Assembly (NCBI GenBank): GCA_000497125.2
Contig: CM035322.1
Location: forward strand, 1,248,001 to 1,312,000
Source of the DNA: Spironucleus salmonicida
Lineage: Eukaryota; Fornicata; Diplomonadida; Hexamitidae
DNA length: 64,000 nt
Direction of reading: 5' to 3'
The notes below the pieces were generated by a model. The model was not told the DNA's origin, made no database searches, and saw only the letters and a program-made list of their open reading frames with translations. A program made the translations under genes and the position numbers. This document shows, in pieces, positions 29,795 through 63,347 of the stretch (position 1 is the first letter of the stretch; every line of letters starts with the position of its first letter).

Positions 29795-29826
29795 TATGAG
29801 TTATATTGTCCTTCTACTTCCTAGCA

Positions 29827-30957: not shown

Positions 30958-31025
30958 TAGTTATATTTCGAATCTTGAAATTCCATGTATTATACCCTAA
31001 CTACTGTAAAACTTAACTTTCCAGA

Positions 31026-31922: not shown

Positions 31923-32071
31923 TTAACTAAGCATGTCTACTACTGAGTTTTTCTATACTAATGCTCATTTGATAGAAATGTTATGGAAATAGTCCTAATA
32001 TTTCGGCAACAGGCTAAGATGACAAACTCACTATTTGTTGCAGATACACGAATATCTGGGATTTTCGGGTG

Positions 32072-33165: not shown

Positions 33166-33327
33166 TATAATCATACATCACCCGAAAATCCCAGATATTC
33201 GTGTATCTGCAACAAATAGTGAGTTTGTCATCTTAGCCTGTTGCCGAAATATTAGGACTATTTCCATAACATTTCTATCAAATGAGCATTAGTATAGAAA
33301 AACTCAGTAGTAGACATGCTTAGTTAA

Positions 33328-34224
33328 TCATTCGTTCATTTCGTCATCAATCATTTCCCGAATCTGTTCTCGGATATCCTGCAGGTTGCGGAAGTTTTAT
33401 TTCATTTCTACAGTAGTAGCTCGTAATTTCTTATTTTCGCTTATAAGCTCTTAAATATCATGTTTCATTTTAACCATCCTCTTGGCTTTCGTATCCACTT
33501 CGTCCTCTAATACTTCTTTCTCCTCATTAAGTTACTCCACTTGTTCCATGAGTATTTTCACCGATGGGACATTATTACCTTCAAAAGAATGCTGATATTA
33601 TTTGATCTTAACTTTGAGTTACTTAATCTAGGTTTCATTTTTCACATTTTGCGTAAGCAATTCGTCATTCTAATTAGTAAGCATAGCAATTTTTGCAAGA
33701 AACAATTCTTTGTCATTTCCAGATTCAACAAGTGCAGAAACAGCAGCAGAGAAACCGCCATTTCTAAAATTATTCAACCCAGATACTCCATTAATTGCGG
33801 CCTTAAGGGTTTCAATTTTCGACTCGTATGCGCCCTATCTCTCCATAAACTGAGATTGCATCCGAATTAATTCTTCTTTCTGCGTTTAATTTTGCCGCTA
33901 TAATGAGAAAAATTCATGTCTAGCTGCATCAAGCTACATCTACGAGTTTCGTCGCTCGTTTCGCAGGTCGTAAAGTTCCGCTTTATTATCAGTATTAATT
34001 TGGGTAAGCTGCTCTGTTCTAAGTTGTGCTGCTGCCAAGGAAGCCTATAGCTGCGATGTATCATTAGCATGCGCGTTTGTCTGCGTCATCAGCGAATTAT
34101 TCAGTTAGGCCGACACTGATCGTTCATGAGCGAGTTCAGATTTTAATTAATTGATATCAGCCATAAGTTAAAGCTAGCGGGCTTCGTGTTGCTAGCGGAG
34201 CAGATCAAAATGTTCGCTATCCAT
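33328..34224 (-). CDS. coiled-coil protein, right-arm copy, 298 aa
   Basis: Mirror image of 31026-31922, with the same translation as far as I compared. The start, stop and local flanks lie inside the arm, so both copies have the same immediate upstream sequence and could both be expressed. Confidence 0.75.
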
Positions 34225-34292
34225 TCTGGAAAGTTAAGTTTTACAGTAGTTAGGGTATAATACATGGAATTTCAAGATTCGAAATATAACTA

Positions 34293-35423
34293 TCACTAAT
34301 CACTCACTGAGCTCTACCAAAAAGACTCCTCCTGCTCACCATTAGTAATCAGGTATATAACTAATATTGTGATGAAAATCAATAATAAGTAGAAGAGTTC
34401 GAAGCTTTCCTGAAGGATCAGCAGAACTATATTTCCTCCAAAGAAGGAGAACACCACTATGGTGATTGGTAGGAACGAAAACAAGAACATTAAGATGCGT
34501 TGCTACCGGAAGATGTGATTTTTGTAAAAACTTGACAAAAGTGTTAACACTCCAACGAAAAGGACGTACGACGCAGCGATTACAATACCAATTTTCCAAC
34601 TTTTGTATATCTTCGGGTAGACGACCAGAAACACAAAGCTAGAGTAGATTGGAATGAAGAATAGGTTTTTATTGATCAAAGTGAGAGAATAAAAGATGAT
34701 CTGTAGGAAACAAGCGTCGAATTTATAGACGGACATCGATTTGAGAATGATGGAGATTAACGTAAGCTTGTAAATAAGGTTGTGCATCTACGGAATACGC
34801 CTATTACGCAAGAGAAGGACAGCCCCAATAAGCGTTATACTGATCAAACTGTAGTATGGTTAGAATCTGGTACTGGACAGTTTGTAGTACAGCCAGAATT
34901 CTTGGCTCTTTGTCGTTACAAGATAGTTTAGGTTAAAATCTTTCAAATAAAATATGTGAATAATCAGTGAGATTGCCGATAGTAATATTAATTTAATCTT
35001 TTGGGCGCGTACTAGCTCCTTCCAAAACAGGAGCAAAGTGAATACAGATATCAGGGGATTTGCTGAAGGTAGTATCATACATCCGATACTGAACATCACA
35101 TTATCTGATGACAACATACCATTGATAATTAGAAACAAACCAAATGCGCCAATAGACTAGTATTCCAAATTTGGTTTAAATATTTCAGCTAGCCAAAGGG
35201 GATCCAATAACAGGCTGGATACCAGTACTTTAAGCTCGATCTTCTTAATGAACGGGTACCTGGCTAATTTAAACTGATTGGAGTAGTACACGCAGAGCAG
35301 AACGTGGGATATGAAAATAAAAAGATACACCCTATAGTCCTTGCCAAGTTATAGGGACTGTACCTGATCGATATAGTTCAAAAGAATGAATAACGCAATG
35401 GCCACTGGTAGATGGTTGATCAT
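34293..35423 (-). CDS. polytopic membrane protein, right-arm copy, 376 aa
   Basis: Mirror image of 29827-30957, complete in the right arm. Here the upstream neighbour is only the truncated end of the helical-repeat gene, so distant upstream control may differ from the left copy. Confidence 0.7.
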
Positions 35424-35455
35424 TGCTAGGAAGTAGAAGGACAATATAACTCATA

Positions 35456-35821
35456 TCATAATAATACTATACCCTTTACTTTTTCAAGAAGCAGCTTAAT
35501 CTCGGTCTACCGATCGAACTTGTCATAGGTCATTGTGAGTATACATTCAAGCATATCTGCTATCTACCCTACTATTGCGCCCTTGTGCTCCTCCAGCGCT
35601 GTGCCTAGAACCAGTAGGATATCCTCATTTTTTAGGTAGCTCAGCACGCAACTAATTTCGTACTGGTTCCGCCTGCTATCCTAGTTCTTGTTCTCCAAGA
35701 ATCCTAACACCAACCCCTTCAGAATCCCTGCAACATCGACCCCGAAATTCATGAAGCCTGCTAGTAGGCTGAAGCACACCCGCACCACCGGCTCCTCGCT
35801 ACCAAGAATCTGCTGCCTCAT
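35456..35821 (-). pseudogene. truncated 3' end of helical-repeat gene with new ATG
   Basis: The right arm carries only the last ~118 codons of the gene at 27605-29794. Just outside the arm edge the flank supplies an in-frame ATG at 35821, giving a 121-codon frame starting MRQQILGSEEPVVRV (the left gene has YMTEILGSEEP at this point). Further upstream in frame is a TGA, so the missing 600 residues are not present. Most likely a gene fragment left by the duplication. It could be translated as a short HEAT-like peptide, but there is no sign that it is used. Confidence 0.7.
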
Positions 35822-44771: not shown

Positions 44772-44996
44772 TGTTTTATTTTGCTATTTCGTATTTTCGT
44801 TACATAGAATTATAATTTTGTATATATATTTACTCTAGTTCAAATACTATCTTTTTTCACTTCCTCATAAATGAAAATTAAACCATAAAAACGCTTATTA
44901 ATTCATATTTAGAATTAGTTTTACCAATATTTTTCAAATCAACAGATTCAGAATCTGTATTTTATCATTAATGGCGAACATACAAACTCGGCCTTA

Positions 44997-46100
44997 ATGA
45001 TTTTTCTTCTCCAAAATTTCAATGCTAAACAGCAAAAGCAGTTCACTCTAACAGTTTCCGGAGACCAAATCACCCAAGAAGCCTCACTGATAGTTGAAAA
45101 TTATCACCTGGCACTTACACCTAATATACCTCCTGAAAACGCACTGTACGTCTCCCTGCTCAGCAAAAATGCCTTAATTACTAGTTTTTTGGATCAAATT
45201 TTTGAAAAATCTCACTTTTACCTCTTTTCATAGATTTCCGACATAGAGCTCTAGGAGCAGGCCGAACAGGCCGATTTCAGTTTCACGGCGATGCCCTTCA
45301 CGCCGTTTATGGAGAAGTCCGTCCATGTCAACTATTCGGTGATCTCTAATCTACAGAAGTCACTGATAGCATTCTAGCTGTCCAAACCGGTCAAAATTGA
45401 GCCATTTTACCGCTTCCCAGAGCCGCTGGGAGGTGTCCCTCCCGCACTGCTGAACTCAGCCTGCCGCATTTTATCAACCGCGCAACCTCAAAAAAAGACG
45501 ATTCTGGTCGCTTTTTCTGGTGGAAAAGACTCCGCGGCGACGTATCTAACGTTACAGGCATTGCAGCCCCGCTTCGATTTTGCTCTCAAGGCACAGCTTT
45601 TCGACCCGCAGCTGCCGGGATTTTCGACGGAAAGGGTGCAGAAAGTGGCTGATTATTTCGGAATTCCACTCGAAATCGTGACTAAAAAGGTTGTCCCGCA
45701 GGACTTCTCGTTATGCGCCTCATGTGCTCGCGCGCGGCGAATTGCGCTCCTGGAGTCCAGACCAGCGTTTCTAGCGCTTGGTCACCATCTAAAGGACTCG
45801 GTAGAGACCATTTTGATGACCGGAATGCACAATGGCGCTTTTTTTCCGCTCCGGGGACTATACACCCCGGAGATCGACGGGGTGGACGGGGAGACGCGAG
45901 TGATCCGGCCGCTGCTGGACTGCACGCAGGGGGACGTGCTGGCATTCACCGGTGCGTTCGCGGTGGAATTCGTGAGCTCCGACGCAGCCGAGTGCGACTT
46001 CGCTGCACGGGGAGGTGGAAAGGAGAGCGAAAGGGGGAGAATCCGGCGGTTCCTAGACGGGCGCGACTACGGCTGGTTCGCGGAAATGGGCTATGAATGA
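44997..46100 (+). CDS. TtcA-like PP-loop ATPase (tRNA thiolation type)
   Basis: A 367-residue protein (ATG 44997, TGA 46098-46100). The PP-loop SGGKDS sits at 174-179, a CxxC pair (C240, C243 in LCASCARARR) follows, then LGHHLKDSVETILMTGMHNG and VIRPLLDC. This order is that of bacterial TtcA, which thiolates C32 of tRNAs with an iron-sulfur cluster; TilS and the Ctu1/TtuA group are relatives. A ~170-residue N-terminal region precedes the PP-loop, much longer than in TtcA, and is not recognised. The first third of the gene is AT-rich, while the PP-loop part is GC-rich with almost no TAR codons. Its last 67 codons form the start of the tandem repeat and recur seven times downstream. Its stop is 13 bp from the convergent H2B stop. 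Confidence 0.75.
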
Positions 46101-46113
46101 GAAACGGGTACAA

Positions 46114-46464
46114 TCACTTGTTGGAGGAATACTTGGAGATGGCAGACTCGGCGTGAGACTGGGCGGCCTTGTAGAGCTCACCACCGTTAAGCACGAGTTT
46201 GGCGGCAGCGGTGATCTGGGACTTACCAATGGTGTTACGGTGGTGCTGTCTGGCGATCTGGGAGGCTTCGGAGGCGATTCTCTCGAAGAGATCGTTGACC
46301 ATGGAGTTCATGGCGGCCATGCACTGCTTGGAGACACCACAGTCAGCGTCCTTGCCCTGGAAGGCATCAGAGGCCTTGAGAACCTTGAGGATGTAGGTAC
46401 CATAGGTCTCTACTCTCTTCATCTTACGGGTAGCTTTGGCTTCAGGGGCGGATCCAAGGGACAT
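46114..46464 (-). CDS. H2B: histone H2B, array copy 1
   Basis: A 116-residue H2B (ATG at 46464, TGA at 46116-46114). The histone fold is clear: VETYGTYILKVLK (alpha 1), GVSKQCMAAMNSMVNDLFERIASEA (alpha 2), then NTIGKSQITAAAKLVLNGGE and the C-terminal helix with ESAISKYSSNK. The N-terminal tail is very short (about 18 residues, SLGSAPEAKATRKMKR) compared with animal or plant H2B, and an extra stretch, KASDAFQGKDADC, sits between alpha 1 and alpha 2. H2B pairs with H2A to wrap nucleosomal DNA. The gene uses no TAR codons and is GC-rich, as expected for a highly expressed gene. No H2A, H3 or H4 lies nearby. Confidence 0.97.
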   Translation of the reverse strand: MSLGSAPEAKATRKMKRVETYGTYILKVLKASDAFQGKDADCGVSKQCMAAMNSMVNDLFERIASEASQIARQHHRNTIGKSQITAAAKLVLNGGELYKAAQSHAESAISKYSSNK

Positions 46465-46691
46465 TTTAAATAGTGGAGTGGAAATGCCAATCTAGGCACC
46501 TGGGCCTAGTCACTTGCGCAGGCTCACTTTTGCGAAATCACTATACTCCACATTATTATATTGCATATACCTCGTATACTCGGGAGAAAGCGAAATAGCC
46601 CAAAGATGGCTGAGTCTACTTTTGTGTACACTTCATCCTACAACGGCGACTTAATGACTTCGCACCTAGGCAGGCAGCCTCCAGTGGTCAG

Positions 46692-47531
46692 TCAGATAGC
46701 ACGATCTCTGATGCTCTACCACGCCATTAACTCACAAATCACGCTGCCGGCGACACACCTGGCGCGCGTGCTCAAGGTGTACACGAACGCAGCATCGCAT
46801 AGCGGGTCGATTTCACACAGCAGCTGGTTCTTTAAGACTACAGCCCCTGTCTCAAGTAGACCTAACAGCAGTCCAGATACAGGCGCACATACGCTGAGCT
46901 GGCCTCGGCGATGGGTCACAGCATCCATTTTTCGGTTGAGGCACTCGCCGGACTCTGTCTACAGGCCCCCCTCATCAGACTCAATGACTCCTATCGGGTC
47001 TCCTATTTTTACAAACTCTCCAATCCCTCGTTTTGCTGTCCACCTCCCGCCGATCTCAGCGCGGGCCTCGCGTTCGAATGAATATCCACCGATTAGCTCT
47101 GGCTCCGACATTTTCTACTGTTTCTAGCGTGTTCCCGCATAGCGCCCCGACTTTTAGATTACAATACTGGCCGTTAGACCCTCTATTCCCCAATTGGTTG
47201 AAATTGTCACCCCTTGGAATTTGAATTGGGTGGGTGCGGTGTTAACAACAATATCATATTAGATATCGGATAGAAACTTAGACGAACTCGTCAAAACCGG
47301 TATAATATTGTCCACTAGGGCCTTGTTAAGCTGTTCTAGCGTCGTTACCCGACGTGCAGTTACCCCCTCTACCTCGAATCCTCCTACAAAAACCGCTTAG
47401 CAAAAGCTTTTCATTCGCTTTAGCGAAGTGGGATGATCTAGTTCTAGGCAGAATGCTGTGATTTATAACCGGGACAGGTAGATGGTCACGGCAGTGCCAA
47501 CCTCTCCCGCACCGATTACAAGGACTCTCAT
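46692..47531 (-). CDS. EF2563/YqeB-family protein (Se-dependent molybdenum hydroxylase system), array copy 1
   Basis: A 279-residue protein (chosen ATG at 47531, TGA at 46694-46692). It starts MRVLVIGAGEVGTAVTIYLS, a Rossmann-type nucleotide loop. Then comes HPTSLKRMKSFCQAVFVGGF and EVEGVTARRV, the family signature (bacterial members have xPxAIRRTVxFxEAVxxGxxxVEGVTA). The C-terminal half has LIGGYSFEREARAEI, GEFVKIGDPIGVIES, CAPVSGLLLGLLETG and CEIDP, matching the barrel-like second half of EF2563/YqeB proteins. In bacteria these genes accompany XdhC-type factors and selenium-dependent molybdenum hydroxylases such as purine hydroxylases; the exact chemistry is unknown. Three TAA/TAG codons precede KMSEPE and others occur, so the gene is adapted to the TAR=Gln code. 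An in-frame ATG at 47648 would add 39 residues but destroys the family-like N-terminus. Confidence 0.8.
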
Positions 47532-48149
47532 TCGAAATAATATATGAATCAATATATAATAACGGCTTCCACTTACATCTGAAATTAAACATAGAATGCC
47601 TGCACATTCACTGCAATGATTTCCACCATTATTGACTCCTATGTACAATTCAACGATGCAAAATTCTATCCCACAAATTGATTTTATTATCCGTTGATTG
47701 TGTTAGCTCAACTTTGTTACTGCATTTAAGTCTTATAGGCAACATTGTTGAAGCCCTTAATATTTGTGAAGATTTGAAGCCATGATCGTAATTTCACATT
47801 AGTAACTAACGCAATAGTGTCCTTTTAGGCTTATAGAAATATATGATATATAGAAAACAAATGACAGGTGGTTCCAGTTAAAATAATGGCCTTAATTTAT
47901 ATTTAAGCTTCATACTGGAGAAAAGTTAGAGTTTTTCATTTTATTTATTTATACTAGCCGTTTATGAAATTTATATCGTACTCCTGACTGGCACTCGTAA
48001 TTTTCGATATTTAATCATCATTTTATCTGTGCCTCCAATGATAGAGCTTAAACACTACTGTTACATTTTTTGTTCTTTGGCAATTTTCTCAAACCGATGA
48101 ATTTATCCTGCTACACACCTTCACACCCTCAGCATCAGTTGAGGAGCGC
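47532..48149. other. non-coding end segment of the repeat unit
   Basis: About 618 AT-rich bases between the YqeB-family start and the next TtcA fragment, present in units 1-7. It should hold the promoter of the YqeB-family gene. A 75-codon minus-strand frame at its centre (starting MMIKYRKLRVPVRS) is weak and probably chance. No tRNA or known element seen. Confidence 0.6.
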
Positions 48150-48350
48150 GTGATCCGGCCGCTGCTGGACTGCACGCAGGGGGACGTGCTGGCATTCACC
48201 GGTGCGTTCGCGGTGGAATTCGTGAGCTCCGACGCAGCCGAGTGCGACTTCGCTGCACGGGGAGGTGGAAAGGAGAGCGAAAGGGGGAGAATCCGGCGGT
48301 TCCTAGACGGGCGCGACTACGGCTGGTTCGCGGAAATGGGCTATGAATGA
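48150..48350 (+). pseudogene. TtcA-like 3' fragment, unit 2
   Basis: The last 67 codons (VIRPLLDC to the stop) of the gene at 44997-46100, without PP-loop or CxxC. The frame continues upstream into the spacer for a short way but has no in-frame ATG before a TGA. It is a by-product of where the repeat was cut. Confidence 0.85.
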
Positions 48351-48363
48351 GAAACGGGTACAA

Positions 48364-48714
48364 TCACTTGTTGGAGGAATACTTGGAGATGGCAGACTCG
48401 GCGTGAGACTGGGCGGCCTTGTAGAGCTCACCACCGTTAAGCACGAGTTTGGCGGCAGCGGTGATCTGGGACTTACCAATGGTGTTACGGTGGTGCTGTC
48501 TGGCGATCTGGGAGGCTTCGGAGGCGATTCTCTCGAAGAGATCGTTGACCATGGAGTTCATGGCGGCCATGCACTGCTTGGAGACACCACAGTCAGCGTC
48601 CTTGCCCTGGAAGGCATCAGAGGCCTTGAGAACCTTGAGGATGTAGGTACCATAGGTCTCTACTCTCTTCATCTTACGGGTAGCTTTGGCTTCAGGGGCG
48701 GATCCAAGGGACAT
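48364..48714 (-). CDS. H2B: histone H2B, array copy 2
   Basis: Translation identical to copy 1. Confidence 0.97.
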   Translation of the reverse strand: MSLGSAPEAKATRKMKRVETYGTYILKVLKASDAFQGKDADCGVSKQCMAAMNSMVNDLFERIASEASQIARQHHRNTIGKSQITAAAKLVLNGGELYKAAQSHAESAISKYSSNK

Positions 48715-48941
48715 TTTAAATAGTGGAGTGGAAATGCCAATCTAGGCACCTGGGCCTAGTCACTTGCGCAGGCTCACTTTTGCGAAATCACTATACTCCA
48801 CATTATTATATTGCATATACCTCGTATACTCGGGAGAAAGCGAAATAGCCCAAAGATGGCTGAGTCTACTTTTGTGTACACTTCATCCTACAACGGCGAC
48901 TTAATGACTTCGCACCTAGGCAGGCAGCCTCCAGTGGTCAG

Positions 48942-49781
48942 TCAGATAGCACGATCTCTGATGCTCTACCACGCCATTAACTCACAAATCACGCTGCCGG
49001 CGACACACCTGGCGCGCGTGCTCAAGGTGTACACGAACGCAGCATCGCATAGCGGGTCGATTTCACACAGCAGCTGGTTCTTTAAGACTACAGCCCCTGT
49101 CTCAAGTAGACCTAACAGCAGTCCAGATACAGGCGCACATACGCTGAGCTGGCCTCGGCGATGGGTCACAGCATCCATTTTTCGGTTGAGGCACTCGCCG
49201 GACTCTGTCTACAGGCCCCCCTCATCAGACTCAATGACTCCTATCGGGTCTCCTATTTTTACAAACTCTCCAATCCCTCGTTTTGCTGTCCACCTCCCGC
49301 CGATCTCAGCGCGGGCCTCGCGTTCGAATGAATATCCACCGATTAGCTCTGGCTCCGACATTTTCTACTGTTTCTAGCGTGTTCCCGCATAGCGCCCCGA
49401 CTTTTAGATTACAATACTGGCCGTTAGACCCTCTATTCCCCAATTGGTTGAAATTGTCACCCCTTGGAATTTGAATTGGGTGGGTGCGGTGTTAACAACA
49501 ATATCATATTAGATATCGGATAGAAACTTAGACGAACTCGTCAAAACCGGTATAATATTGTCCACTAGGGCCTTGTTAAGCTGTTCTAGCGTCGTTACCC
49601 GACGTGCAGTTACCCCCTCTACCTCGAATCCTCCTACAAAAACCGCTTAGCAAAAGCTTTTCATTCGCTTTAGCGAAGTGGGATGATCTAGTTCTAGGCA
49701 GAATGCTGTGATTTATAACCGGGACAGGTAGATGGTCACGGCAGTGCCAACCTCTCCCGCACCGATTACAAGGACTCTCAT
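48942..49781 (-). CDS. EF2563/YqeB-family protein, array copy 2
   Basis: Same sequence as copy 1 as far as compared. Confidence 0.8.
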
Positions 49782-50399
49782 TCGAAATAATATATGAATC
49801 AATATATAATAACGGCTTCCACTTACATCTGAAATTAAACATAGAATGCCTGCACATTCACTGCAATGATTTCCACCATTATTGACTCCTATGTACAATT
49901 CAACGATGCAAAATTCTATCCCACAAATTGATTTTATTATCCGTTGATTGTGTTAGCTCAACTTTGTTACTGCATTTAAGTCTTATAGGCAACATTGTTG
50001 AAGCCCTTAATATTTGTGAAGATTTGAAGCCATGATCGTAATTTCACATTAGTAACTAACGCAATAGTGTCCTTTTAGGCTTATAGAAATATATGATATA
50101 TAGAAAACAAATGACAGGTGGTTCCAGTTAAAATAATGGCCTTAATTTATATTTAAGCTTCATACTGGAGAAAAGTTAGAGTTTTTCATTTTATTTATTT
50201 ATACTAGCCGTTTATGAAATTTATATCGTACTCCTGACTGGCACTCGTAATTTTCGATATTTAATCATCATTTTATCTGTGCCTCCAATGATAGAGCTTA
50301 AACACTACTGTTACATTTTTTGTTCTTTGGCAATTTTCTCAAACCGATGAATTTATCCTGCTACACACCTTCACACCCTCAGCATCAGTTGAGGAGCGC

Positions 50400-50600
50400 G
50401 TGATCCGGCCGCTGCTGGACTGCACGCAGGGGGACGTGCTGGCATTCACCGGTGCGTTCGCGGTGGAATTCGTGAGCTCCGACGCAGCCGAGTGCGACTT
50501 CGCTGCACGGGGAGGTGGAAAGGAGAGCGAAAGGGGGAGAATCCGGCGGTTCCTAGACGGGCGCGACTACGGCTGGTTCGCGGAAATGGGCTATGAATGA
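50400..50600 (+). pseudogene. TtcA-like 3' fragment, unit 3
   Basis: Same 67-codon fragment as in unit 2. Confidence 0.85.
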
Positions 50601-50613
50601 GAAACGGGTACAA

Positions 50614-50964
50614 TCACTTGTTGGAGGAATACTTGGAGATGGCAGACTCGGCGTGAGACTGGGCGGCCTTGTAGAGCTCACCACCGTTAAGCACGAGTTT
50701 GGCGGCAGCGGTGATCTGGGACTTACCAATGGTGTTACGGTGGTGCTGTCTGGCGATCTGGGAGGCTTCGGAGGCGATTCTCTCGAAGAGATCGTTGACC
50801 ATGGAGTTCATGGCGGCCATGCACTGCTTGGAGACACCACAGTCAGCGTCCTTGCCCTGGAAGGCATCAGAGGCCTTGAGAACCTTGAGGATGTAGGTAC
50901 CATAGGTCTCTACTCTCTTCATCTTACGGGTAGCTTTGGCTTCAGGGGCGGATCCAAGGGACAT
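50614..50964 (-). CDS. H2B: histone H2B, array copy 3
   Basis: Translation identical to copy 1. Confidence 0.97.
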   Translation of the reverse strand: MSLGSAPEAKATRKMKRVETYGTYILKVLKASDAFQGKDADCGVSKQCMAAMNSMVNDLFERIASEASQIARQHHRNTIGKSQITAAAKLVLNGGELYKAAQSHAESAISKYSSNK

Positions 50965-51191
50965 TTTAAATAGTGGAGTGGAAATGCCAATCTAGGCACC
51001 TGGGCCTAGTCACTTGCGCAGGCTCACTTTTGCGAAATCACTATACTCCACATTATTATATTGCATATACCTCGTATACTCGGGAGAAAGCGAAATAGCC
51101 CAAAGATGGCTGAGTCTACTTTTGTGTACACTTCATCCTACAACGGCGACTTAATGACTTCGCACCTAGGCAGGCAGCCTCCAGTGGTCAG

Positions 51192-52031
51192 TCAGATAGC
51201 ACGATCTCTGATGCTCTACCACGCCATTAACTCACAAATCACGCTGCCGGCGACACACCTGGCGCGCGTGCTCAAGGTGTACACGAACGCAGCATCGCAT
51301 AGCGGGTCGATTTCACACAGCAGCTGGTTCTTTAAGACTACAGCCCCTGTCTCAAGTAGACCTAACAGCAGTCCAGATACAGGCGCACATACGCTGAGCT
51401 GGCCTCGGCGATGGGTCACAGCATCCATTTTTCGGTTGAGGCACTCGCCGGACTCTGTCTACAGGCCCCCCTCATCAGACTCAATGACTCCTATCGGGTC
51501 TCCTATTTTTACAAACTCTCCAATCCCTCGTTTTGCTGTCCACCTCCCGCCGATCTCAGCGCGGGCCTCGCGTTCGAATGAATATCCACCGATTAGCTCT
51601 GGCTCCGACATTTTCTACTGTTTCTAGCGTGTTCCCGCATAGCACCCCGACTTTTAGATTACAATACTGGCCGTTAGACCCTCTATTCCCCAATTGGTTG
51701 AAATTGTCACCCCTTGGAATTTGAATTGGGTGGGTGCGGTGTTAACAACAATATCATATTAGATATCGGATAGAAACTTAGACGAACTCGTCAAAACCGG
51801 TATAATATTGTCCACTAGGGCCTTGTTAAGCTGTTCTAGCGTCGTTACCCGACGTGCAGTTACCCCCTCTACCTCGAATCCTCCTACAAAAACCGCTTAG
51901 CAAAAGCTTTTCATTCGCTTTAGCGAAGTGGGATGATCTAGTTCTAGGCAGAATGCTGTGATTTATAACCGGGACAGGTAGATGGTCACGGCAGTGCCAA
52001 CCTCTCCCGCACCGATTACAAGGACTCTCAT
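51192..52031 (-). CDS. EF2563/YqeB-family protein, array copy 3 (Arg to Cys variant)
   Basis: Differs from the other copies at nt 51644 (A for G on the plus strand). This turns the Arg in KSGRYAGT into Cys at about residue 130. Otherwise the same as copy 1. Confidence 0.8.
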
Positions 52032-52649
52032 TCGAAATAATATATGAATCAATATATAATAACGGCTTCCACTTACATCTGAAATTAAACATAGAATGCC
52101 TGCACATTCACTGCAATGATTTCCACCATTATTGACTCCTATGTACAATTCAACGATGCAAAATTCTATCCCACAAATTGATTTTATTATCCGTTGATTG
52201 TGTTAGCTCAACTTTGTTACTGCATTTAAGTCTTATAGGCAACATTGTTGAAGCCCTTAATATTTGTGAAGATTTGAAGCCATGATCGTAATTTCACATT
52301 AGTAACTAACGCAATAGTGTCCTTTTAGGCTTATAGAAATATATGATATATAGAAAACAAATGACAGGTGGTTCCAGTTAAAATAATGGCCTTAATTTAT
52401 ATTTAAGCTTCATACTGGAGAAAAGTTAGAGTTTTTCATTTTATTTATTTATACTAGCCGTTTATGAAATTTATATCGTACTCCTGACTGGCACTCGTAA
52501 TTTTCGATATTTAATCATCATTTTATCTGTGCCTCCAATGATAGAGCTTAAACACTACTGTTACATTTTTTGTTCTTTGGCAATTTTCTCAAACCGATGA
52601 ATTTATCCTGCTACACACCTTCACACCCTCAGCATCAGTTGAGGAGCGC

Positions 52650-52850
52650 GTGATCCGGCCGCTGCTGGACTGCACGCAGGGGGACGTGCTGGCATTCACC
52701 GGTGCGTTCGCGGTGGAATTCGTGAGCTCCGACGCAGCCGAGTGCGACTTCGCTGCACGGGGAGGTGGAAAGGAGAGCGAAAGGGGGAGAATCCGGCGGT
52801 TCCTAGACGGGCGCGACTACGGCTGGTTCGCGGAAATGGGCTATGAATGA
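52650..52850 (+). pseudogene. TtcA-like 3' fragment, unit 4
   Basis: Same 67-codon fragment as in unit 2. Confidence 0.85.
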
Positions 52851-52863
52851 GAAACGGGTACAA

Positions 52864-53214
52864 TCACTTGTTGGAGGAATACTTGGAGATGGCAGACTCG
52901 GCGTGAGACTGGGCGGCCTTGTAGAGCTCACCACCGTTAAGCACGAGTTTGGCGGCAGCGGTGATCTGGGACTTACCAATGGTGTTACGGTGGTGCTGTC
53001 TGGCGATCTGGGAGGCTTCGGAGGCGATTCTCTCGAAGAGATCGTTGACCATGGAGTTCATGGCGGCCATGCACTGCTTGGAGACACCACAGTCAGCGTC
53101 CTTGCCCTGGAAGGCATCAGAGGCCTTGAGAACCTTGAGGATGTAGGTACCATAGGTCTCTACTCTCTTCATCTTACGGGTAGCTTTGGCTTCAGGGGCG
53201 GATCCAAGGGACAT
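52864..53214 (-). CDS. H2B: histone H2B, array copy 4
   Basis: Translation identical to copy 1. Confidence 0.97.
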   Translation of the reverse strand: MSLGSAPEAKATRKMKRVETYGTYILKVLKASDAFQGKDADCGVSKQCMAAMNSMVNDLFERIASEASQIARQHHRNTIGKSQITAAAKLVLNGGELYKAAQSHAESAISKYSSNK

Positions 53215-53441
53215 TTTAAATAGTGGAGTGGAAATGCCAATCTAGGCACCTGGGCCTAGTCACTTGCGCAGGCTCACTTTTGCGAAATCACTATACTCCA
53301 CATTATTATATTGCATATACCTCGTATACTCGGGAGAAAGCGAAATAGCCCAAAGATGGCTGAGTCTACTTTTGTGTACACTTCATCCTACAACGGCGAC
53401 TTAATGACTTCGCACCTAGGCAGGCAGCCTCCAGTGGTCAG

Positions 53442-54281
53442 TCAGATAGCACGATCTCTGATGCTCTACCACGCCATTAACTCACAAATCACGCTGCCGG
53501 CGACACACCTGGCGCGCGTGCTCAAGGTGTACACGAACGCAGCATCGCATAGCGGGTCGATTTCACACAGCAGCTGGTTCTTTAAGACTACAGCCCCTGT
53601 CTCAAGTAGACCTAACAGCAGTCCAGATACAGGCGCACATACGCTGAGCTGGCCTCGGCGATGGGTCACAGCATCCATTTTTCGGTTGAGGCACTCGCCG
53701 GACTCTGTCTACAGGCCCCCCTCATCAGACTCAATGACTCCTATCGGGTCTCCTATTTTTACAAACTCTCCAATCCCTCGTTTTGCTGTCCACCTCCCGC
53801 CGATCTCAGCGCGGGCCTCGCGTTCGAATGAATATCCACCGATTAGCTCTGGCTCCGACATTTTCTACTGTTTCTAGCGTGTTCCCGCATAGCGCCCCGA
53901 CTTTTAGATTACAATACTGGCCGTTAGACCCTCTATTCCCCAATTGGTTGAAATTGTCACCCCTTGGAATTTGAATTGGGTGGGTGCGGTGTTAACAACA
54001 ATATCATATTAGATATCGGATAGAAACTTAGACGAACTCGTCAAAACCGGTATAATATTGTCCACTAGGGCCTTGTTAAGCTGTTCTAGCGTCGTTACCC
54101 GACGTGCAGTTACCCCCTCTACCTCGAATCCTCCTACAAAAACCGCTTAGCAAAAGCTTTTCATTCGCTTTAGCGAAGTGGGATGATCTAGTTCTAGGCA
54201 GAATGCTGTGATTTATAACCGGGACAGGTAGATGGTCACGGCAGTGCCAACCTCTCCCGCACCGATTACAAGGACTCTCAT
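53442..54281 (-). CDS. EF2563/YqeB-family protein, array copy 4
   Basis: Same sequence as copy 1 as far as compared. Confidence 0.8.
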
Positions 54282-54899
54282 TCGAAATAATATATGAATC
54301 AATATATAATAACGGCTTCCACTTACATCTGAAATTAAACATAGAATGCCTGCACATTCACTGCAATGATTTCCACCATTATTGACTCCTATGTACAATT
54401 CAACGATGCAAAATTCTATCCCACAAATTGATTTTATTATCCGTTGATTGTGTTAGCTCAACTTTGTTACTGCATTTAAGTCTTATAGGCAACATTGTTG
54501 AAGCCCTTAATATTTGTGAAGATTTGAAGCCATGATCGTAATTTCACATTAGTAACTAACGCAATAGTGTCCTTTTAGGCTTATAGAAATATATGATATA
54601 TAGAAAACAAATGACAGGTGGTTCCAGTTAAAATAATGGCCTTAATTTATATTTAAGCTTCATACTGGAGAAAAGTTAGAGTTTTTCATTTTATTTATTT
54701 ATACTAGCCGTTTATGAAATTTATATCGTACTCCTGACTGGCACTCGTAATTTTCGATATTTAATCATCATTTTATCTGTGCCTCCAATGATAGAGCTTA
54801 AACACTACTGTTACATTTTTTGTTCTTTGGCAATTTTCTCAAACCGATGAATTTATCCTGCTACACACCTTCACACCCTCAGCATCAGTTGAGGAGCGC

Positions 54900-55100
54900 G
54901 TGATCCGGCCGCTGCTGGACTGCACGCAGGGGGACGTGCTGGCATTCACCGGTGCGTTCGCGGTGGAATTCGTGAGCTCCGACGCAGCCGAGTGCGACTT
55001 CGCTGCACGGGGAGGTGGAAAGGAGAGCGAAAGGGGGAGAATCCGGCGGTTCCTAGACGGGCGCGACTACGGCTGGTTCGCGGAAATGGGCTATGAATGA
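54900..55100 (+). pseudogene. TtcA-like 3' fragment, unit 5
   Basis: Same 67-codon fragment as in unit 2. Confidence 0.85.
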
Positions 55101-55113
55101 GAAACGGGTACAA

Positions 55114-55464
55114 TCACTTGTTGGAGGAATACTTGGAGATGGCAGACTCGGCGTGAGACTGGGCGGCCTTGTAGAGCTCACCACCGTTAAGCACGAGTTT
55201 GGCGGCAGCGGTGATCTGGGACTTACCAATGGTGTTACGGTGGTGCTGTCTGGCGATCTGGGAGGCTTCGGAGGCGATTCTCTCGAAGAGATCGTTGACC
55301 ATGGAGTTCATGGCGGCCATGCACTGCTTGGAGACACCACAGTCAGCGTCCTTGCCCTGGAAGGCATCAGAGGCCTTGAGAACCTTGAGGATGTAGGTAC
55401 CATAGGTCTCTACTCTCTTCATCTTACGGGTAGCTTTGGCTTCAGGGGCGGATCCAAGGGACAT
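55114..55464 (-). CDS. H2B: histone H2B, array copy 5
   Basis: Translation identical to copy 1. Confidence 0.97.
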   Translation of the reverse strand: MSLGSAPEAKATRKMKRVETYGTYILKVLKASDAFQGKDADCGVSKQCMAAMNSMVNDLFERIASEASQIARQHHRNTIGKSQITAAAKLVLNGGELYKAAQSHAESAISKYSSNK

Positions 55465-55691
55465 TTTAAATAGTGGAGTGGAAATGCCAATCTAGGCACC
55501 TGGGCCTAGTCACTTGCGCAGGCTCACTTTTGCGAAATCACTATACTCCACATTATTATATTGCATATACCTCGTATACTCGGGAGAAAGCGAAATAGCC
55601 CAAAGATGGCTGAGTCTACTTTTGTGTACACTTCATCCTACAACGGCGACTTAATGACTTCGCACCTAGGCAGGCAGCCTCCAGTGGTCAG

Positions 55692-56531
55692 TCAGATAGC
55701 ACGATCTCTGATGCTCTACCACGCCATTAACTCACAAATCACGCTGCCGGCGACACACCTGGCGCGCGTGCTCAAGGTGTACACGAACGCAGCATCGCAT
55801 AGCGGGTCGATTTCACACAGCAGCTGGTTCTTTAAGACTACAGCCCCTGTCTCAAGTAGACCTAACAGCAGTCCAGATACAGGCGCACATACGCTGAGCT
55901 GGCCTCGGCGATGGGTCACAGCATCCATTTTTCGGTTGAGGCACTCGCCGGACTCTGTCTACAGGCCCCCCTCATCAGACTCAATGACTCCTATCGGGTC
56001 TCCTATTTTTACAAACTCTCCAATCCCTCGTTTTGCTGTCCACCTCCCGCCGATCTCAGCGCGGGCCTCGCGTTCGAATGAATATCCACCGATTAGCTCT
56101 GGCTCCGACATTTTCTACTGTTTCTAGCGTGTTCCCGCATAGCGCCCCGACTTTTAGATTACAATACTGGCCGTTAGACCCTCTATTCCCCAATTGGTTG
56201 AAATTGTCACCCCTTGGAATTTGAATTGGGTGGGTGCGGTGTTAACAACAATATCATATTAGATATCGGATAGAAACTTAGACGAACTCGTCAAAACCGG
56301 TATAATATTGTCCACTAGGGCCTTGTTAAGCTGTTCTAGCGTCGTTACCCGACGTGCAGTTACCCCCTCTACCTCGAATCCTCCTACAAAAACCGCTTAG
56401 CAAAAGCTTTTCATTCGCTTTAGCGAAGTGGGATGATCTAGTTCTAGGCAGAATGCTGTGATTTATAACCGGGACAGGTAGATGGTCACGGCAGTGCCAA
56501 CCTCTCCCGCACCGATTACAAGGACTCTCAT
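55692..56531 (-). CDS. EF2563/YqeB-family protein, array copy 5
   Basis: Same sequence as copy 1 as far as compared. Confidence 0.8.
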
Positions 56532-57149
56532 TCGAAATAATATATGAATCAATATATAATAACGGCTTCCACTTACATCTGAAATTAAACATAGAATGCC
56601 TGCACATTCACTGCAATGATTTCCACCATTATTGACTCCTATGTACAATTCAACGATGCAAAATTCTATCCCACAAATTGATTTTATTATCCGTTGATTG
56701 TGTTAGCTCAACTTTGTTACTGCATTTAAGTCTTATAGGCAACATTGTTGAAGCCCTTAATATTTGTGAAGATTTGAAGCCATGATCGTAATTTCACATT
56801 AGTAACTAACGCAATAGTGTCCTTTTAGGCTTATAGAAATATATGATATATAGAAAACAAATGACAGGTGGTTCCAGTTAAAATAATGGCCTTAATTTAT
56901 ATTTAAGCTTCATACTGGAGAAAAGTTAGAGTTTTTCATTTTATTTATTTATACTAGCCGTTTATGAAATTTATATCGTACTCCTGACTGGCACTCGTAA
57001 TTTTCGATATTTAATCATCATTTTATCTGTGCCTCCAATGATAGAGCTTAAACACTACTGTTACATTTTTTGTTCTTTGGCAATTTTCTCAAACCGATGA
57101 ATTTATCCTGCTACACACCTTCACACCCTCAGCATCAGTTGAGGAGCGC

Positions 57150-57350
57150 GTGATCCGGCCGCTGCTGGACTGCACGCAGGGGGACGTGCTGGCATTCACC
57201 GGTGCGTTCGCGGTGGAATTCGTGAGCTCCGACGCAGCCGAGTGCGACTTCGCTGCACGGGGAGGTGGAAAGGAGAGCGAAAGGGGGAGAATCCGGCGGT
57301 TCCTAGACGGGCGCGACTACGGCTGGTTCGCGGAAATGGGCTATGAATGA
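57150..57350 (+). pseudogene. TtcA-like 3' fragment, unit 6
   Basis: Same 67-codon fragment as in unit 2. Confidence 0.85.
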
Positions 57351-57363
57351 GAAACGGGTACAA

Positions 57364-57714
57364 TCACTTGTTGGAGGAATACTTGGAGATGGCAGACTCG
57401 GCGTGAGACTGGGCGGCCTTGTAGAGCTCACCACCGTTAAGCACGAGTTTGGCGGCAGCGGTGATCTGGGACTTACCAATGGTGTTACGGTGGTGCTGTC
57501 TGGCGATCTGGGAGGCTTCGGAGGCGATTCTCTCGAAGAGATCGTTGACCATGGAGTTCATGGCGGCCATGCACTGCTTGGAGACACCACAGTCAGCGTC
57601 CTTGCCCTGGAAGGCATCAGAGGCCTTGAGAACCTTGAGGATGTAGGTACCATAGGTCTCTACTCTCTTCATCTTACGGGTAGCTTTGGCTTCAGGGGCG
57701 GATCCAAGGGACAT
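57364..57714 (-). CDS. H2B: histone H2B, array copy 6
   Basis: Translation identical to copy 1. Confidence 0.97.
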   Translation of the reverse strand: MSLGSAPEAKATRKMKRVETYGTYILKVLKASDAFQGKDADCGVSKQCMAAMNSMVNDLFERIASEASQIARQHHRNTIGKSQITAAAKLVLNGGELYKAAQSHAESAISKYSSNK

Positions 57715-57941
57715 TTTAAATAGTGGAGTGGAAATGCCAATCTAGGCACCTGGGCCTAGTCACTTGCGCAGGCTCACTTTTGCGAAATCACTATACTCCA
57801 CATTATTATATTGCATATACCTCGTATACTCGGGAGAAAGCGAAATAGCCCAAAGATGGCTGAGTCTACTTTTGTGTACACTTCATCCTACAACGGCGAC
57901 TTAATGACTTCGCACCTAGGCAGGCAGCCTCCAGTGGTCAG

Positions 57942-58781
57942 TCAGATAGCACGATCTCTGATGCTCTACCACGCCATTAACTCACAAATCACGCTGCCGG
58001 CGACACACCTGGCGCGCGTGCTCAAGGTGTACACGAACGCAGCATCGCATAGCGGGTCGATTTCACACAGCAGCTGGTTCTTTAAGACTACAGCCCCTGT
58101 CTCAAGTAGACCTAACAGCAGTCCAGATACAGGCGCACATACGCTGAGCTGGCCTCGGCGATGGGTCACAGCATCCATTTTTCGGTTGAGGCACTCGCCG
58201 GACTCTGTCTACAGGCCCCCCTCATCAGACTCAATGACTCCTATCGGGTCTCCTATTTTTACAAACTCTCCAATCCCTCGTTTTGCTGTCCACCTCCCGC
58301 CGATCTCAGCGCGGGCCTCGCGTTCGAATGAATATCCACCGATTAGCTCTGGCTCCGACATTTTCTACTGTTTCTAGCGTGTTCCCGCATAGCGCCCCGA
58401 CTTTTAGATTACAATACTGGCCGTTAGACCCTCTATTCCCCAATTGGTTGAAATTGTCACCCCTTGGAATTTGAATTGGGTGGGTGCGGTGTTAACAACA
58501 ATATCATATTAGATATCGGATAGAAACTTAGACGAACTCGTCAAAACCGGTATAATATTGTCCACTAGGGCCTTGTTAAGCTGTTCTAGCGTCGTTACCC
58601 GACGTGCAGTTACCCCCTCTACCTCGAATCCTCCTACAAAAACCGCTTAGCAAAAGCTTTTCATTCGCTTTAGCGAAGTGGGATGATCTAGTTCTAGGCA
58701 GAATGCTGTGATTTATAACCGGGACAGGTAGATGGTCACGGCAGTGCCAACCTCTCCCGCACCGATTACAAGGACTCTCAT
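57942..58781 (-). CDS. EF2563/YqeB-family protein, array copy 6
   Basis: Same sequence as copy 1 as far as compared. Confidence 0.8.
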
Positions 58782-59399
58782 TCGAAATAATATATGAATC
58801 AATATATAATAACGGCTTCCACTTACATCTGAAATTAAACATAGAATGCCTGCACATTCACTGCAATGATTTCCACCATTATTGACTCCTATGTACAATT
58901 CAACGATGCAAAATTCTATCCCACAAATTGATTTTATTATCCGTTGATTGTGTTAGCTCAACTTTGTTACTGCATTTAAGTCTTATAGGCAACATTGTTG
59001 AAGCCCTTAATATTTGTGAAGATTTGAAGCCATGATCGTAATTTCACATTAGTAACTAACGCAATAGTGTCCTTTTAGGCTTATAGAAATATATGATATA
59101 TAGAAAACAAATGACAGGTGGTTCCAGTTAAAATAATGGCCTTAATTTATATTTAAGCTTCATACTGGAGAAAAGTTAGAGTTTTTCATTTTATTTATTT
59201 ATACTAGCCGTTTATGAAATTTATATCGTACTCCTGACTGGCACTCGTAATTTTCGATATTTAATCATCATTTTATCTGTGCCTCCAATGATAGAGCTTA
59301 AACACTACTGTTACATTTTTTGTTCTTTGGCAATTTTCTCAAACCGATGAATTTATCCTGCTACACACCTTCACACCCTCAGCATCAGTTGAGGAGCGC

Positions 59400-59600
59400 G
59401 TGATCCGGCCGCTGCTGGACTGCACGCAGGGGGACGTGCTGGCATTCACCGGTGCGTTCGCGGTGGAATTCGTGAGCTCCGACGCAGCCGAGTGCGACTT
59501 CGCTGCACGGGGAGGTGGAAAGGAGAGCGAAAGGGGGAGAATCCGGCGGTTCCTAGACGGGCGCGACTACGGCTGGTTCGCGGAAATGGGCTATGAATGA
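59400..59600 (+). pseudogene. TtcA-like 3' fragment, unit 7
   Basis: Same 67-codon fragment as in unit 2. Confidence 0.85.
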
Positions 59601-59613
59601 GAAACGGGTACAA

Positions 59614-59964
59614 TCACTTGTTGGAGGAATACTTGGAGATGGCAGACTCGGCGTGAGACTGGGCGGCCTTGTAGAGCTCACCACCGTTAAGCACGAGTTT
59701 GGCGGCAGCGGTGATCTGGGACTTACCAATGGTGTTACGGTGGTGCTGTCTGGCGATCTGGGAGGCTTCGGAGGCGATTCTCTCGAAGAGATCGTTGACC
59801 ATGGAGTTCATGGCGGCCATGCACTGCTTGGAGACACCACAGTCAGCGTCCTTGCCCTGGAAGGCATCAGAGGCCTTGAGAACCTTGAGGATGTAGGTAC
59901 CATAGGTCTCTACTCTCTTCATCTTACGGGTAGCTTTGGCTTCAGGGGCGGATCCAAGGGACAT
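59614..59964 (-). CDS. H2B: histone H2B, array copy 7
   Basis: Translation identical to copy 1. Confidence 0.97.
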   Translation of the reverse strand: MSLGSAPEAKATRKMKRVETYGTYILKVLKASDAFQGKDADCGVSKQCMAAMNSMVNDLFERIASEASQIARQHHRNTIGKSQITAAAKLVLNGGELYKAAQSHAESAISKYSSNK

Positions 59965-60191
59965 TTTAAATAGTGGAGTGGAAATGCCAATCTAGGCACC
60001 TGGGCCTAGTCACTTGCGCAGGCTCACTTTTGCGAAATCACTATACTCCACATTATTATATTGCATATACCTCGTATACTCGGGAGAAAGCGAAATAGCC
60101 CAAAGATGGCTGAGTCTACTTTTGTGTACACTTCATCCTACAACGGCGACTTAATGACTTCGCACCTAGGCAGGCAGCCTCCAGTGGTCAG

Positions 60192-61031
60192 TCAGATAGC
60201 ACGATCTCTGATGCTCTACCACGCCATTAACTCACAAATCACGCTGCCGGCGACACACCTGGCGCGCGTGCTCAAGGTGTACACGAACGCAGCATCGCAT
60301 AGCGGGTCGATTTCACACAGCAGCTGGTTCTTTAAGACTACAGCCCCTGTCTCAAGTAGACCTAACAGCAGTCCAGATACAGGCGCACATACGCTGAGCT
60401 GGCCTCGGCGATGGGTCACAGCATCCATTTTTCGGTTGAGGCACTCGCCGGACTCTGTCTACAGGCCCCCCTCATCAGACTCAATGACTCCTATCGGGTC
60501 TCCTATTTTTACAAACTCTCCAATCCCTCGTTTTGCTGTCCACCTCCCGCCGATCTCAGCGCGGGCCTCGCGTTCGAATGAATATCCACCGATTAGCTCT
60601 GGCTCCGACATTTTCTACTGTTTCTAGCGTGTTCCCGCATAGCGCCCCGACTTTTAGATTACAATACTGGCCGTTAGACCCTCTATTCCCCAATTGGTTG
60701 AAATTGTCACCCCTTGGAATTTGAATTGGGTGGGTGCGGTGTTAACAACAATATCATATTAGATATCGGATAGAAACTTAGACGAACTCGTCAAAACCGG
60801 TATAATATTGTCCACTAGGGCCTTGTTAAGCTGTTCTAGCGTCGTTACCCGACGTGCAGTTACCCCCTCTACCTCGAATCCTCCTACAAAAACCGCTTAG
60901 CAAAAGCTTTTCATTCGCTTTAGCGAAGTGGGATGATCTAGTTCTAGGCAGAATGCTGTGATTTATAACCGGGACAGGTAGATGGTCACGGCAGTGCCAA
61001 CCTCTCCCGCACCGATTACAAGGACTCTCAT
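60192..61031 (-). CDS. EF2563/YqeB-family protein, array copy 7
   Basis: Same sequence as copy 1 as far as compared. Confidence 0.8.
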
Positions 61032-61649
61032 TCGAAATAATATATGAATCAATATATAATAACGGCTTCCACTTACATCTGAAATTAAACATAGAATGCC
61101 TGCACATTCACTGCAATGATTTCCACCATTATTGACTCCTATGTACAATTCAACGATGCAAAATTCTATCCCACAAATTGATTTTATTATCCGTTGATTG
61201 TGTTAGCTCAACTTTGTTACTGCATTTAAGTCTTATAGGCAACATTGTTGAAGCCCTTAATATTTGTGAAGATTTGAAGCCATGATCGTAATTTCACATT
61301 AGTAACTAACGCAATAGTGTCCTTTTAGGCTTATAGAAATATATGATATATAGAAAACAAATGACAGGTGGTTCCAGTTAAAATAATGGCCTTAATTTAT
61401 ATTTAAGCTTCATACTGGAGAAAAGTTAGAGTTTTTCATTTTATTTATTTATACTAGCCGTTTATGAAATTTATATCGTACTCCTGACTGGCACTCGTAA
61501 TTTTCGATATTTAATCATCATTTTATCTGTGCCTCCAATGATAGAGCTTAAACACTACTGTTACATTTTTTGTTCTTTGGCAATTTTCTCAAACCGATGA
61601 ATTTATCCTGCTACACACCTTCACACCCTCAGCATCAGTTGAGGAGCGC

Positions 61650-61850
61650 GTGATCCGGCCGCTGCTGGACTGCACGCAGGGGGACGTGCTGGCATTCACC
61701 GGTGCGTTCGCGGTGGAATTCGTGAGCTCCGACGCAGCCGAGTGCGACTTCGCTGCACGGGGAGGTGGAAAGGAGAGCGAAAGGGGGAGAATCCGGCGGT
61801 TCCTAGACGGGCGCGACTACGGCTGGTTCGCGGAAATGGGCTATGAATGA
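61650..61850 (+). pseudogene. TtcA-like 3' fragment, unit 8
   Basis: Same 67-codon fragment as in unit 2. Confidence 0.85.
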
Positions 61851-61863
61851 GAAACGGGTACAA

Positions 61864-62214
61864 TCACTTGTTGGAGGAATACTTGGAGATGGCAGACTCG
61901 GCGTGAGACTGGGCGGCCTTGTAGAGCTCACCACCGTTAAGCACGAGTTTGGCGGCAGCGGTGATCTGGGACTTACCAATGGTGTTACGGTGGTGCTGTC
62001 TGGCGATCTGGGAGGCTTCGGAGGCGATTCTCTCGAAGAGATCGTTGACCATGGAGTTCATGGCGGCCATGCACTGCTTGGAGACACCACAGTCAGCGTC
62101 CTTGCCCTGGAAGGCATCAGAGGCCTTGAGAACCTTGAGGATGTAGGTACCATAGGTCTCTACTCTCTTCATCTTACGGGTAGCTTTGGCTTCAGGGGCG
62201 GATCCAAGGGACAT
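61864..62214 (-). CDS. H2B: histone H2B, array copy 8
   Basis: Translation identical to copy 1. Confidence 0.97.
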   Translation of the reverse strand: MSLGSAPEAKATRKMKRVETYGTYILKVLKASDAFQGKDADCGVSKQCMAAMNSMVNDLFERIASEASQIARQHHRNTIGKSQITAAAKLVLNGGELYKAAQSHAESAISKYSSNK

Positions 62215-62441
62215 TTTAAATAGTGGAGTGGAAATGCCAATCTAGGCACCTGGGCCTAGTCACTTGCGCAGGCTCACTTTTGCGAAATCACTATACTCCA
62301 CATTATTATATTGCATATACCTCGTATACTCGGGAGAAAGCGAAATAGCCCAAAGATGGCTGAGTCTACTTTTGTGTACACTTCATCCTACAACGGCGAC
62401 TTAATGACTTCGCACCTAGGCAGGCAGCCTCCAGTGGTCAG

Positions 62442-63281
62442 TCAGATAGCACGATCTCTGATGCTCTACCACGCCATTAACTCACAAATCACGCTGCCGG
62501 CGACACACCTGGCGCGCGTGCTCAAGGTGTACACGAACGCAGCATCGCATAGCGGGTCGATTTCACACAGCAGCTGGTTCTTTAAGACTACAGCCCCTGT
62601 CTCAAGTAGACCTAACAGCAGTCCAGATACAGGCGCACATACGCTGAGCTGGCCTCGGCGATGGGTCACAGCATCCATTTTTCGGTTGAGGCACTCGCCG
62701 GACTCTGTCTACAGGCCCCCCTCATCAGACTCAATGACTCCTATCGGGTCTCCTATTTTTACAAACTCTCCAATCCCTCGTTTTGCTGTCCACCTCCCGC
62801 CGATCTCAGCGCGGGCCTCGCGTTCGAATGAATATCCACCGATTAGCTCTGGCTCCGACATTTTCTACTGTTTCTAGCGTGTTCCCGCATAGCGCCCCGA
62901 CTTTTAGATTACAATACTGGCCGTTAGACCCTCTATTCCCCAATTGGTTGAAATTGTCACCCCTTGGAATTTGAATTGGGTGGGTGCGGTGTTAACAACA
63001 ATATCATATTAGATATCGGATAGAAACTTAGACGAACTCGTCAAAACCGGTATAATATTGTCCACTAGGGCCTTGTTAAGCTGTTCTAGCGTCGTTACCC
63101 GACGTGCAGTTACCCCCTCTACCTCGAATCCTCCTACAAAAACCGCTTAGCAAAAGCTTTTCATTCGCTTTAGCGAAGTGGGATGATCTAGTTCTAGGCA
63201 GAATGCTGTGATTTATAACCGGGACAGGTAGATGGTCACGGCAGTGCCAACCTCTCCCGCACCGATTACAAGGACTCTCAT
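62442..63281 (-). CDS. EF2563/YqeB-family protein, array copy 8
   Basis: Complete coding region. Only about 40-50 bp of the usual upstream spacer remains before unit similarity ends at 63321-63330, so its promoter region differs from that of copies 1-7 and is shared with the divergent gene at 63348. Confidence 0.8.
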
Positions 63282-63347
63282 TCGAAATAATATATGAATC
63301 AATATATAATAACGGCTTCCAGTTACATCTCGTAATTTTTTTAGAAA

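Follow-up and report, generated by a model that had tools for sequence, protein, structure and literature searches.

A tandem array of histone H2B genes in Spironucleus salmonicida, probably maintained for H2B dosage with a bacterial-type EF2563/YqeB-like gene carried along

Why would a core histone gene and a gene of bacterial type be amplified together? This question is raised by a 64,000-nt stretch of the Spironucleus salmonicida genome (assembly GCA_000497125.2, contig CM035322.1; C7:1,248,001-1,312,000 in a genome of 14.47 Mb and 37 contigs), hereafter the window, in which genes for histone H2B alternate with genes related to the EF2563/YqeB family. The initial annotation left open whether the array raises the dosage of either gene or whether one of them is a passenger. 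Our analysis narrowed the choice to H2B, since every unit has its whole H2B gene, preceded by a motif that also occurs upstream of H2A, and no YqeB-like gene was found at the other histone loci. We consider it probable (about 0.6) that this is an H2B dosage array, in which the YqeB-like gene hitchhikes and unequal exchange or gene conversion keeps the copies uniform.

Exact 2,250-bp units fill positions 45,900-63,321 (17,422 bp = 7 x 2,250 + 1,672; 7.74 units). Over 46,000-61,000, self-identity was 1.0 at a lag of 2,250, versus 0.247-0.290 at the remaining lags tested (2,230-2,270). When the lag of 2,250 was followed in 250-bp bins (46,001-61,000), identity was 1.0 in all except two bins, at 0.996. 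The sole difference among units in the whole array is one base, at 51,644 in unit 3: codon 130 of the YqeB-like gene is CGC (Arg) in 7/8 units and TGC (Cys) in the other. Thus, eight identical H2B genes and eight YqeB-like genes alternate head to tail, each at 2,250-bp steps, in near-identical units with H2B as the only histone type in each of the eight, just as the initial annotation had described. Copy number and inter-unit identity are both read from the assembly. The array is absent from the output of Tandem Repeats Finder, in which the longest period is 500.

The flanks on both sides are unique and joined to the array. Its left edge lies within a gene for a PP-loop (TtcA/TilS-like) ATPase, and on the right the last unit breaks off 40 bp upstream of its YqeB-like gene (Table 1). 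Our genome-wide searches score the best candidates only, so that counts from them are lower bounds. A query with the PP-loop protein returned one full copy, seven fragments and one distant relative on contig C5. In favor of selection on H2B, the PP-loop gene is cut in seven of the eight units, whereas H2B and its upstream region are whole in all. A gap of 13 bp separates the 3' end of H2B from the stop codon of the PP-loop gene. The YqeB-like gene shares the minus strand with H2B, 227 bp upstream of it. The H2B protein matched the Pfam histone family (PF00125) with 50.7 bits against a cut-off of 26.4. Most of its 33 relatives are unnamed and one weak match bears the name of H4; those named H2B are from Giardia muris (51% over 90%) and Hexamita inflata (65% over 61% of the query).

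We then asked how H2B compares with the other core histones, a count that the initial annotation had proposed as a check. The H2B query found at least nine places, namely the eight array copies and one divergent variant of 37% identity ("variant" is our own label for divergent histone sequences). The Pfam histone search found at least 31 places, of which 30 were read: 5 canonical H3, 4 H3 variants, 6 canonical H2A, 1 H2A variant, the 8 H2B genes of the array, 1 H2B variant and 5 truncated H4. The last (C30:7,993), its sequence unread, looks like a sixth truncated H4. The canonical H3 genes are on C1 (four) and C6, and all six canonical H2A genes are on C2. This list is incomplete, as intact H4 genes were not among its matches; two intact H4 genes were read on C3, and ten copies plus five pseudo copies of H4 have been published for this species (PMC9509377). 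All four core histones are therefore multicopy, with the canonical types on different contigs. Amplification of H2B only, as the initial annotation saw it, holds within the array and fails genome-wide. Our preferred reading is that the array belongs to a genome-wide pattern of single-type histone amplification and is not a unique partnership of H2B with a molybdoenzyme gene.

Each H2B copy is preceded by the motif CTGCGCNAGTNNCTAGGCC, with 16 of its 19 bases fixed. All 14 exact matches in the genome lie upstream of H2A (6) or H2B (8) genes, and the motif read backwards, as a control, had none. Allowing up to two mismatches added 10 places; all of them had two, and no histone place from the Pfam search was among them. 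A 13-bp motif, GATAGCTGGTTTC, which was searched without mismatches only, had 21 exact matches: the 5 canonical H3 genes, 13 sites in the H4 region of C3 and 3 on C30; its backwards control also gave zero in the genome. Two of the 16 sites in H4-bearing regions were read, and each precedes an H4 start. Of the spacings between sites on C3, eight are 1,585 bp and four are about 5.2 kb. Relative to the ATG, the motifs start at -54 in H2A (6/6), -57 in H2B, -53 in H3 (5/5) and -54 in H4 (one gene). The six variant histone genes were not among the matches to CTGCGCNAGTNNCTAGGCC (up to two mismatches) or GATAGCTGGTTTC (exact). The C6 H3 gene retains the 13-bp motif despite only 81-82% DNA identity to the C1 copies.

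To compare these regions between types, we scored the best 19-base match within 100 bp upstream against 60 shuffles made by simple block exchange. The best match of H2A with H2B was 16, reached by 0/60 shuffles for the H2A gene at 720 kb on C2 and by 1/60 for that at 94 kb. The best match of H3 with H4 was 17 (C6 H3) or 15 (C1 H3), reached by none of the 60 shuffles in either case. Matches of H2B with H3 and with H4 were no better than shuffles (54/60 and 47/60). These results suggest that CTGCGCNAGTNNCTAGGCC and GATAGCTGGTTTC are putative regulatory (switch) elements. We propose, tentatively, that canonical histones are wired by nucleosome sub-complex, with one element for H2A and H2B and another for H3 and H4, both 53-57 bp before the ATG and neither found at the variants. 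If so, two factors, or one factor in two modes, would match the supply of dimer and tetramer, and the copy number of each type could evolve separately at its own locus. The motif sequences may be new. Neither they nor the H2B array were found described in the passages of PMC9509377, PMC2386477, PMC2939574 and PMC1872034 that served as sources, all open-licence literature; H2B is unmentioned in those of PMC2386477, and the word "histone" is absent from PMC3916229.

Table 1. Positions of the array and its parts in the window; further copies follow at 2,250-bp steps.
Feature	Position	Strand	Details
Tandem array	45900..63321		7 full 2,250-bp units + 1,672 bp
PP-loop (TtcA/TilS-like) ATPase gene	44871..46100	+	409 aa (table 6); final 201 bp = start of repeat unit
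Histone H2B, unit 1	46114..46464	-	116 aa; identical copies +2250n, n = 1-7 (last 61864-62214)
H2B upstream region	46465..46691	-	227 bp, YqeB stop to H2B start
H2A/H2B upstream motif CTGCGCNAGTNNCTAGGCC	46503..46521	-	starts 57 bp before H2B ATG; 8/8 units (last 62253-62271)
EF2563/YqeB-like gene, unit 1	46692..47531	-	279 aa (table 6); copies +2250n, n = 1-7 (last 62442-63281)
Region upstream of YqeB	47532..47571		40 bp, retained in 8/8 units
Spacer	47572..48149		578 bp, ~33% GC, 7 copies; links YqeB upstream to cut PP-loop gene
PP-loop 3' fragment, unit 2	48150..48350	+	same in units 3-8; 7 fragments in total
Variant base	51644..51644		YqeB codon 130: Cys in unit 3, Arg in other 7

The partner gene was examined in the same way, with TAA and TAG read through as Gln in genes (translation table 6). 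Its reading frame is open in all eight copies. The protein matched TIGR03309 at 8.1e-31 and 107.4 bits, below the curated equivalog cut-off of 220, and it is therefore a divergent relative of this prokaryotic family; to this extent the assignment made in the initial annotation stands. The two protein versions scored 107.4 and 107.2 bits, that of unit 3 no better than that of unit 1. A first search for relatives listed 65 proteins including the window's own. The 64 others showed 26-30% identity over 60-100% of its length, and two of them are named, one only taxonomically (Oscillospiraceae). Of 7,999 candidates scored in a profile search, the best 120 include a few named by organism, all bacterial. 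The gene may have a lateral origin. Protein predictions made with the standard code hide relatives that have TAA/TAG codons, so that absence from other diplomonads is not inferable. From an alignment, not from the family definition, we read off a glycine-rich core and the segment that follows it, GPGFTAG-x-DCHAVVETMRGH. In the array protein this core is gapped in the MAFFT alignment and mostly mismatched in the profile alignment, with no conservation of GPGFTAG or of most of DCHAVVETMRGHYLGR, and the core is also missing from the gene's other frames. A frameshift was rejected, as the remaining two frames gave no significant profile match. Nor do we claim that unit 3 retains a family Cys: MAFFT puts Cys130 at the invariant Cys of the family, but the profile alignment does not.

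The initial annotation had placed this gene in molybdoenzyme maturation. This role is not supported in this genome, as the Mo-hydroxylase domain (PF02738, MoCoBD_1) had 0 matches in the assembly, where other Mo-cofactor genes were not searched, and YqeC (TIGR03172) likewise had 0 matches there. On the other hand, selD is present (TIGR00476, 281.7 bits, C1:1536303), and some alternative use of selenium is possible. The selD gene (C1:1536303-1537235) carries 12 in-frame TAA/TAG codons. Prokaryotic members of TIGR03309 are linked to selD (PMC2276186, PMC2432076). A passage of a 2014 paper on S. salmonicida (PMC3916229) reports a SelD-NifS fusion, suggests selenium use, and describes three identical homologs of a SelD-tied gene not detected earlier in a eukaryotic genome, citing two 2008 papers on EF2563. 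That gene appears to be the YqeB-like gene of the array, although the passage gives no accession.

We suppose that the array arose when a stretch from the 3' end of the PP-loop gene via H2B to just upstream of YqeB was tandemly duplicated, with the 578-bp spacer placed at the joint. Unequal exchange or gene conversion would then have raised the copies to about eight, and would still keep the units alike. Each unit would be a self-sufficient H2B gene, with its coding region, its 3' end towards the PP-loop tail and the upstream element shared with H2A. The YqeB-like gene, bacterial-type and linked to selenium, would be carried along because it is located between H2B and the right breakpoint. For the spacer, no further place was found in the genome besides the seven array copies, and a copy from elsewhere was rejected as its source.

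Other duplicates in the genome bear on the upkeep of the units. The four C1 H3 genes have 99.3-99.8% coding identity, with unrelated or patchwork flanks, and upstream and downstream the match ends at different points for each pair. The C6 H3 gene encodes the same protein as the C1 genes with 79-81 base differences, all silent. In H2A, three of the six genes were compared and had 100% coding identity, with long matching flanks in some pairs. The window itself contains a perfect inverted repeat, with 2,646-bp arms (29,439-32,084 and 33,166-35,811), a 1,081-bp spacer and two open reading frames per arm that have no Pfam match at 0.001. From the H3 and H2A identity and this perfect repeat, duplicates here are therefore young or kept alike. 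Of the two, we favor upkeep, by conversion or unequal exchange.

Several points weigh against selection for H2B dosage and against the motif classes that accompany it. An open YqeB frame in every unit is not required of a pure passenger, though it could also result from conversion or from a recent origin. Part of the inter-unit identity may be a polishing effect, caused by reads mapping to many units. The separation of the two motif classes is incomplete: H2A and C1 H3 match across classes at 15/19 bases at -20, adjoining the start codon, and AT-rich upstream pairs without a common motif reach 13-16 of 19 in the same statistic. The genome-wide motif counts are therefore the stronger evidence. 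Moreover, copies of the same type share the motif by descent, so that the independent coincidences are few: H2A with H2B, H3 with H4, and the diverged C6 H3 with C1 H3.

If instead the YqeB-like gene, or both genes, were under selection, the array would raise the dose of a selenium-handling protein. The eight open frames, the lack of any copy found outside the array, the link of the family to selD with its reported NifS fusion, and the three identical homologs of apparently this gene in PMC3916229 all agree with this idea. We nevertheless regard it as unlikely: the other multicopy histone loci have no copy of YqeB, which also speaks for H2B as the selected gene, the family motifs are largely not conserved, and neither PF02738 nor YqeC was found. 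Chance amplification, neutral or recent, with neither gene selected would readily give near-identical units if recent, in a genome whose published assembly is 19.2% duplicated (PMC9509377). Such chance would hardly make H2A, H2B, H3 and H4 each multicopy, and we consider it very improbable.

A different concern is that the array is real and its copy number or uniformity is a product of assembly, by collapse, expansion or over-polishing, for this is a 17-kb repeat and the read N50 is 14.6 kb. The assembly was made from a 10-kb PacBio library with Illumina polishing (PMC9509377), the earlier assembly gave three identical copies of apparently the same YqeB gene (PMC3916229), and our units differ at one base only. 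Set against this, both flanks are unique and joined, and unit 3 has kept its private base. There is also no NheI site from 39,980 to 68,207, so that the published NheI optical map, whose alignment is described as good (PMC9509377), should reveal a large error in length. In the passages of that paper, the authors' coverage check concerns the two largest duplications and leaves the H2B array locus unmentioned. On balance, an assembly product seems improbable, and H2B dosage remains our preferred explanation.

Some further observations concern the surroundings of the array and of the other histone genes. GC content in the PP-loop gene (44871-45899) increases towards the array edge, from 25% to about 59%, mostly outside the repeat. 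A GC-rich tract restricted to the array was thus unsupported, as GC is already climbing in that gene and is 33% in the spacer. An RNA gene within the array was rejected, because Rfam (gathering threshold) and ARAGORN found a lone tRNA-Ser (11,250-11,331) in the window. The C6 H3 gene starts about 0.9 kb before a match to an H3 variant. Five truncated H4 copies (C3:1472933-1496465 and C30:2170-3630) have poly(A) runs that differ in length but are joined to the same H4 codon, a pattern resembling that of a non-LTR (long terminal repeat) element that inserts at a single fixed site in H4.

These results suggest that a diplomonad can draw its histones from separate amplified loci of one type each, in contrast to Giardia, for which two or three copies are reported. 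The two motifs, with 35 exact sites, form a small testable set for the balance of H2A/H2B and H3/H4 in a genome without clustered histone genes. The array also provides a natural example in which a gene of bacterial type seems to have been amplified solely through its location.

The closest comparison is within the species, whose published assembly has nine chromosomes and 14.7 Mb, of which 284 kb are gaps (PMC9509377). Its chromosome 3 harbors a tandem array of H4 with four reverse transcriptases (PMC9509377), which resembles the H2B array in having one histone type in tandem with a second gene inside. It differs in that the truncated H4 copies there stop at a poly(A) joint, whereas each H2B unit has an open YqeB-like neighbor. 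As for the partner, TIGR03309 is its best family match, covering most of the profile, and selD is in the genome; the partner departs from the family in its score below the cut-off, its unconserved core motifs, the lack of matches to YqeC and PF02738, and its eukaryotic host. The diplomonad Giardia intestinalis also has its histone types at separate locations, with copies similar in coding and upstream sequence and a conserved motif in a short promoter (PMC1872034). Unlike S. salmonicida, it has two copies each of H2A, H2B and H3 and three of H4, and a single motif, him, in every histone gene (PMC1872034). Here, him had 0 matches in the window with up to three mismatches, and its best matches within 150 bp upstream of 13 canonical genes (6 H2A, 5 H3, 1 H2B unit, 1 H4) had 5-7 mismatches. 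In trypanosomes, core histones likewise form tandem arrays (T. cruzi, PMC13052989; T. brucei, PMC12227686), with the canonical types of T. cruzi spread over different chromosomes (PMC13052989). T. brucei differs in its polycistronic transcription (PMC12227686), and the passages on both species mention no partner gene in the unit, in contrast to YqeB here. Since single-type arrays are known elsewhere, an array of H2B only is unusual but not unheard of.

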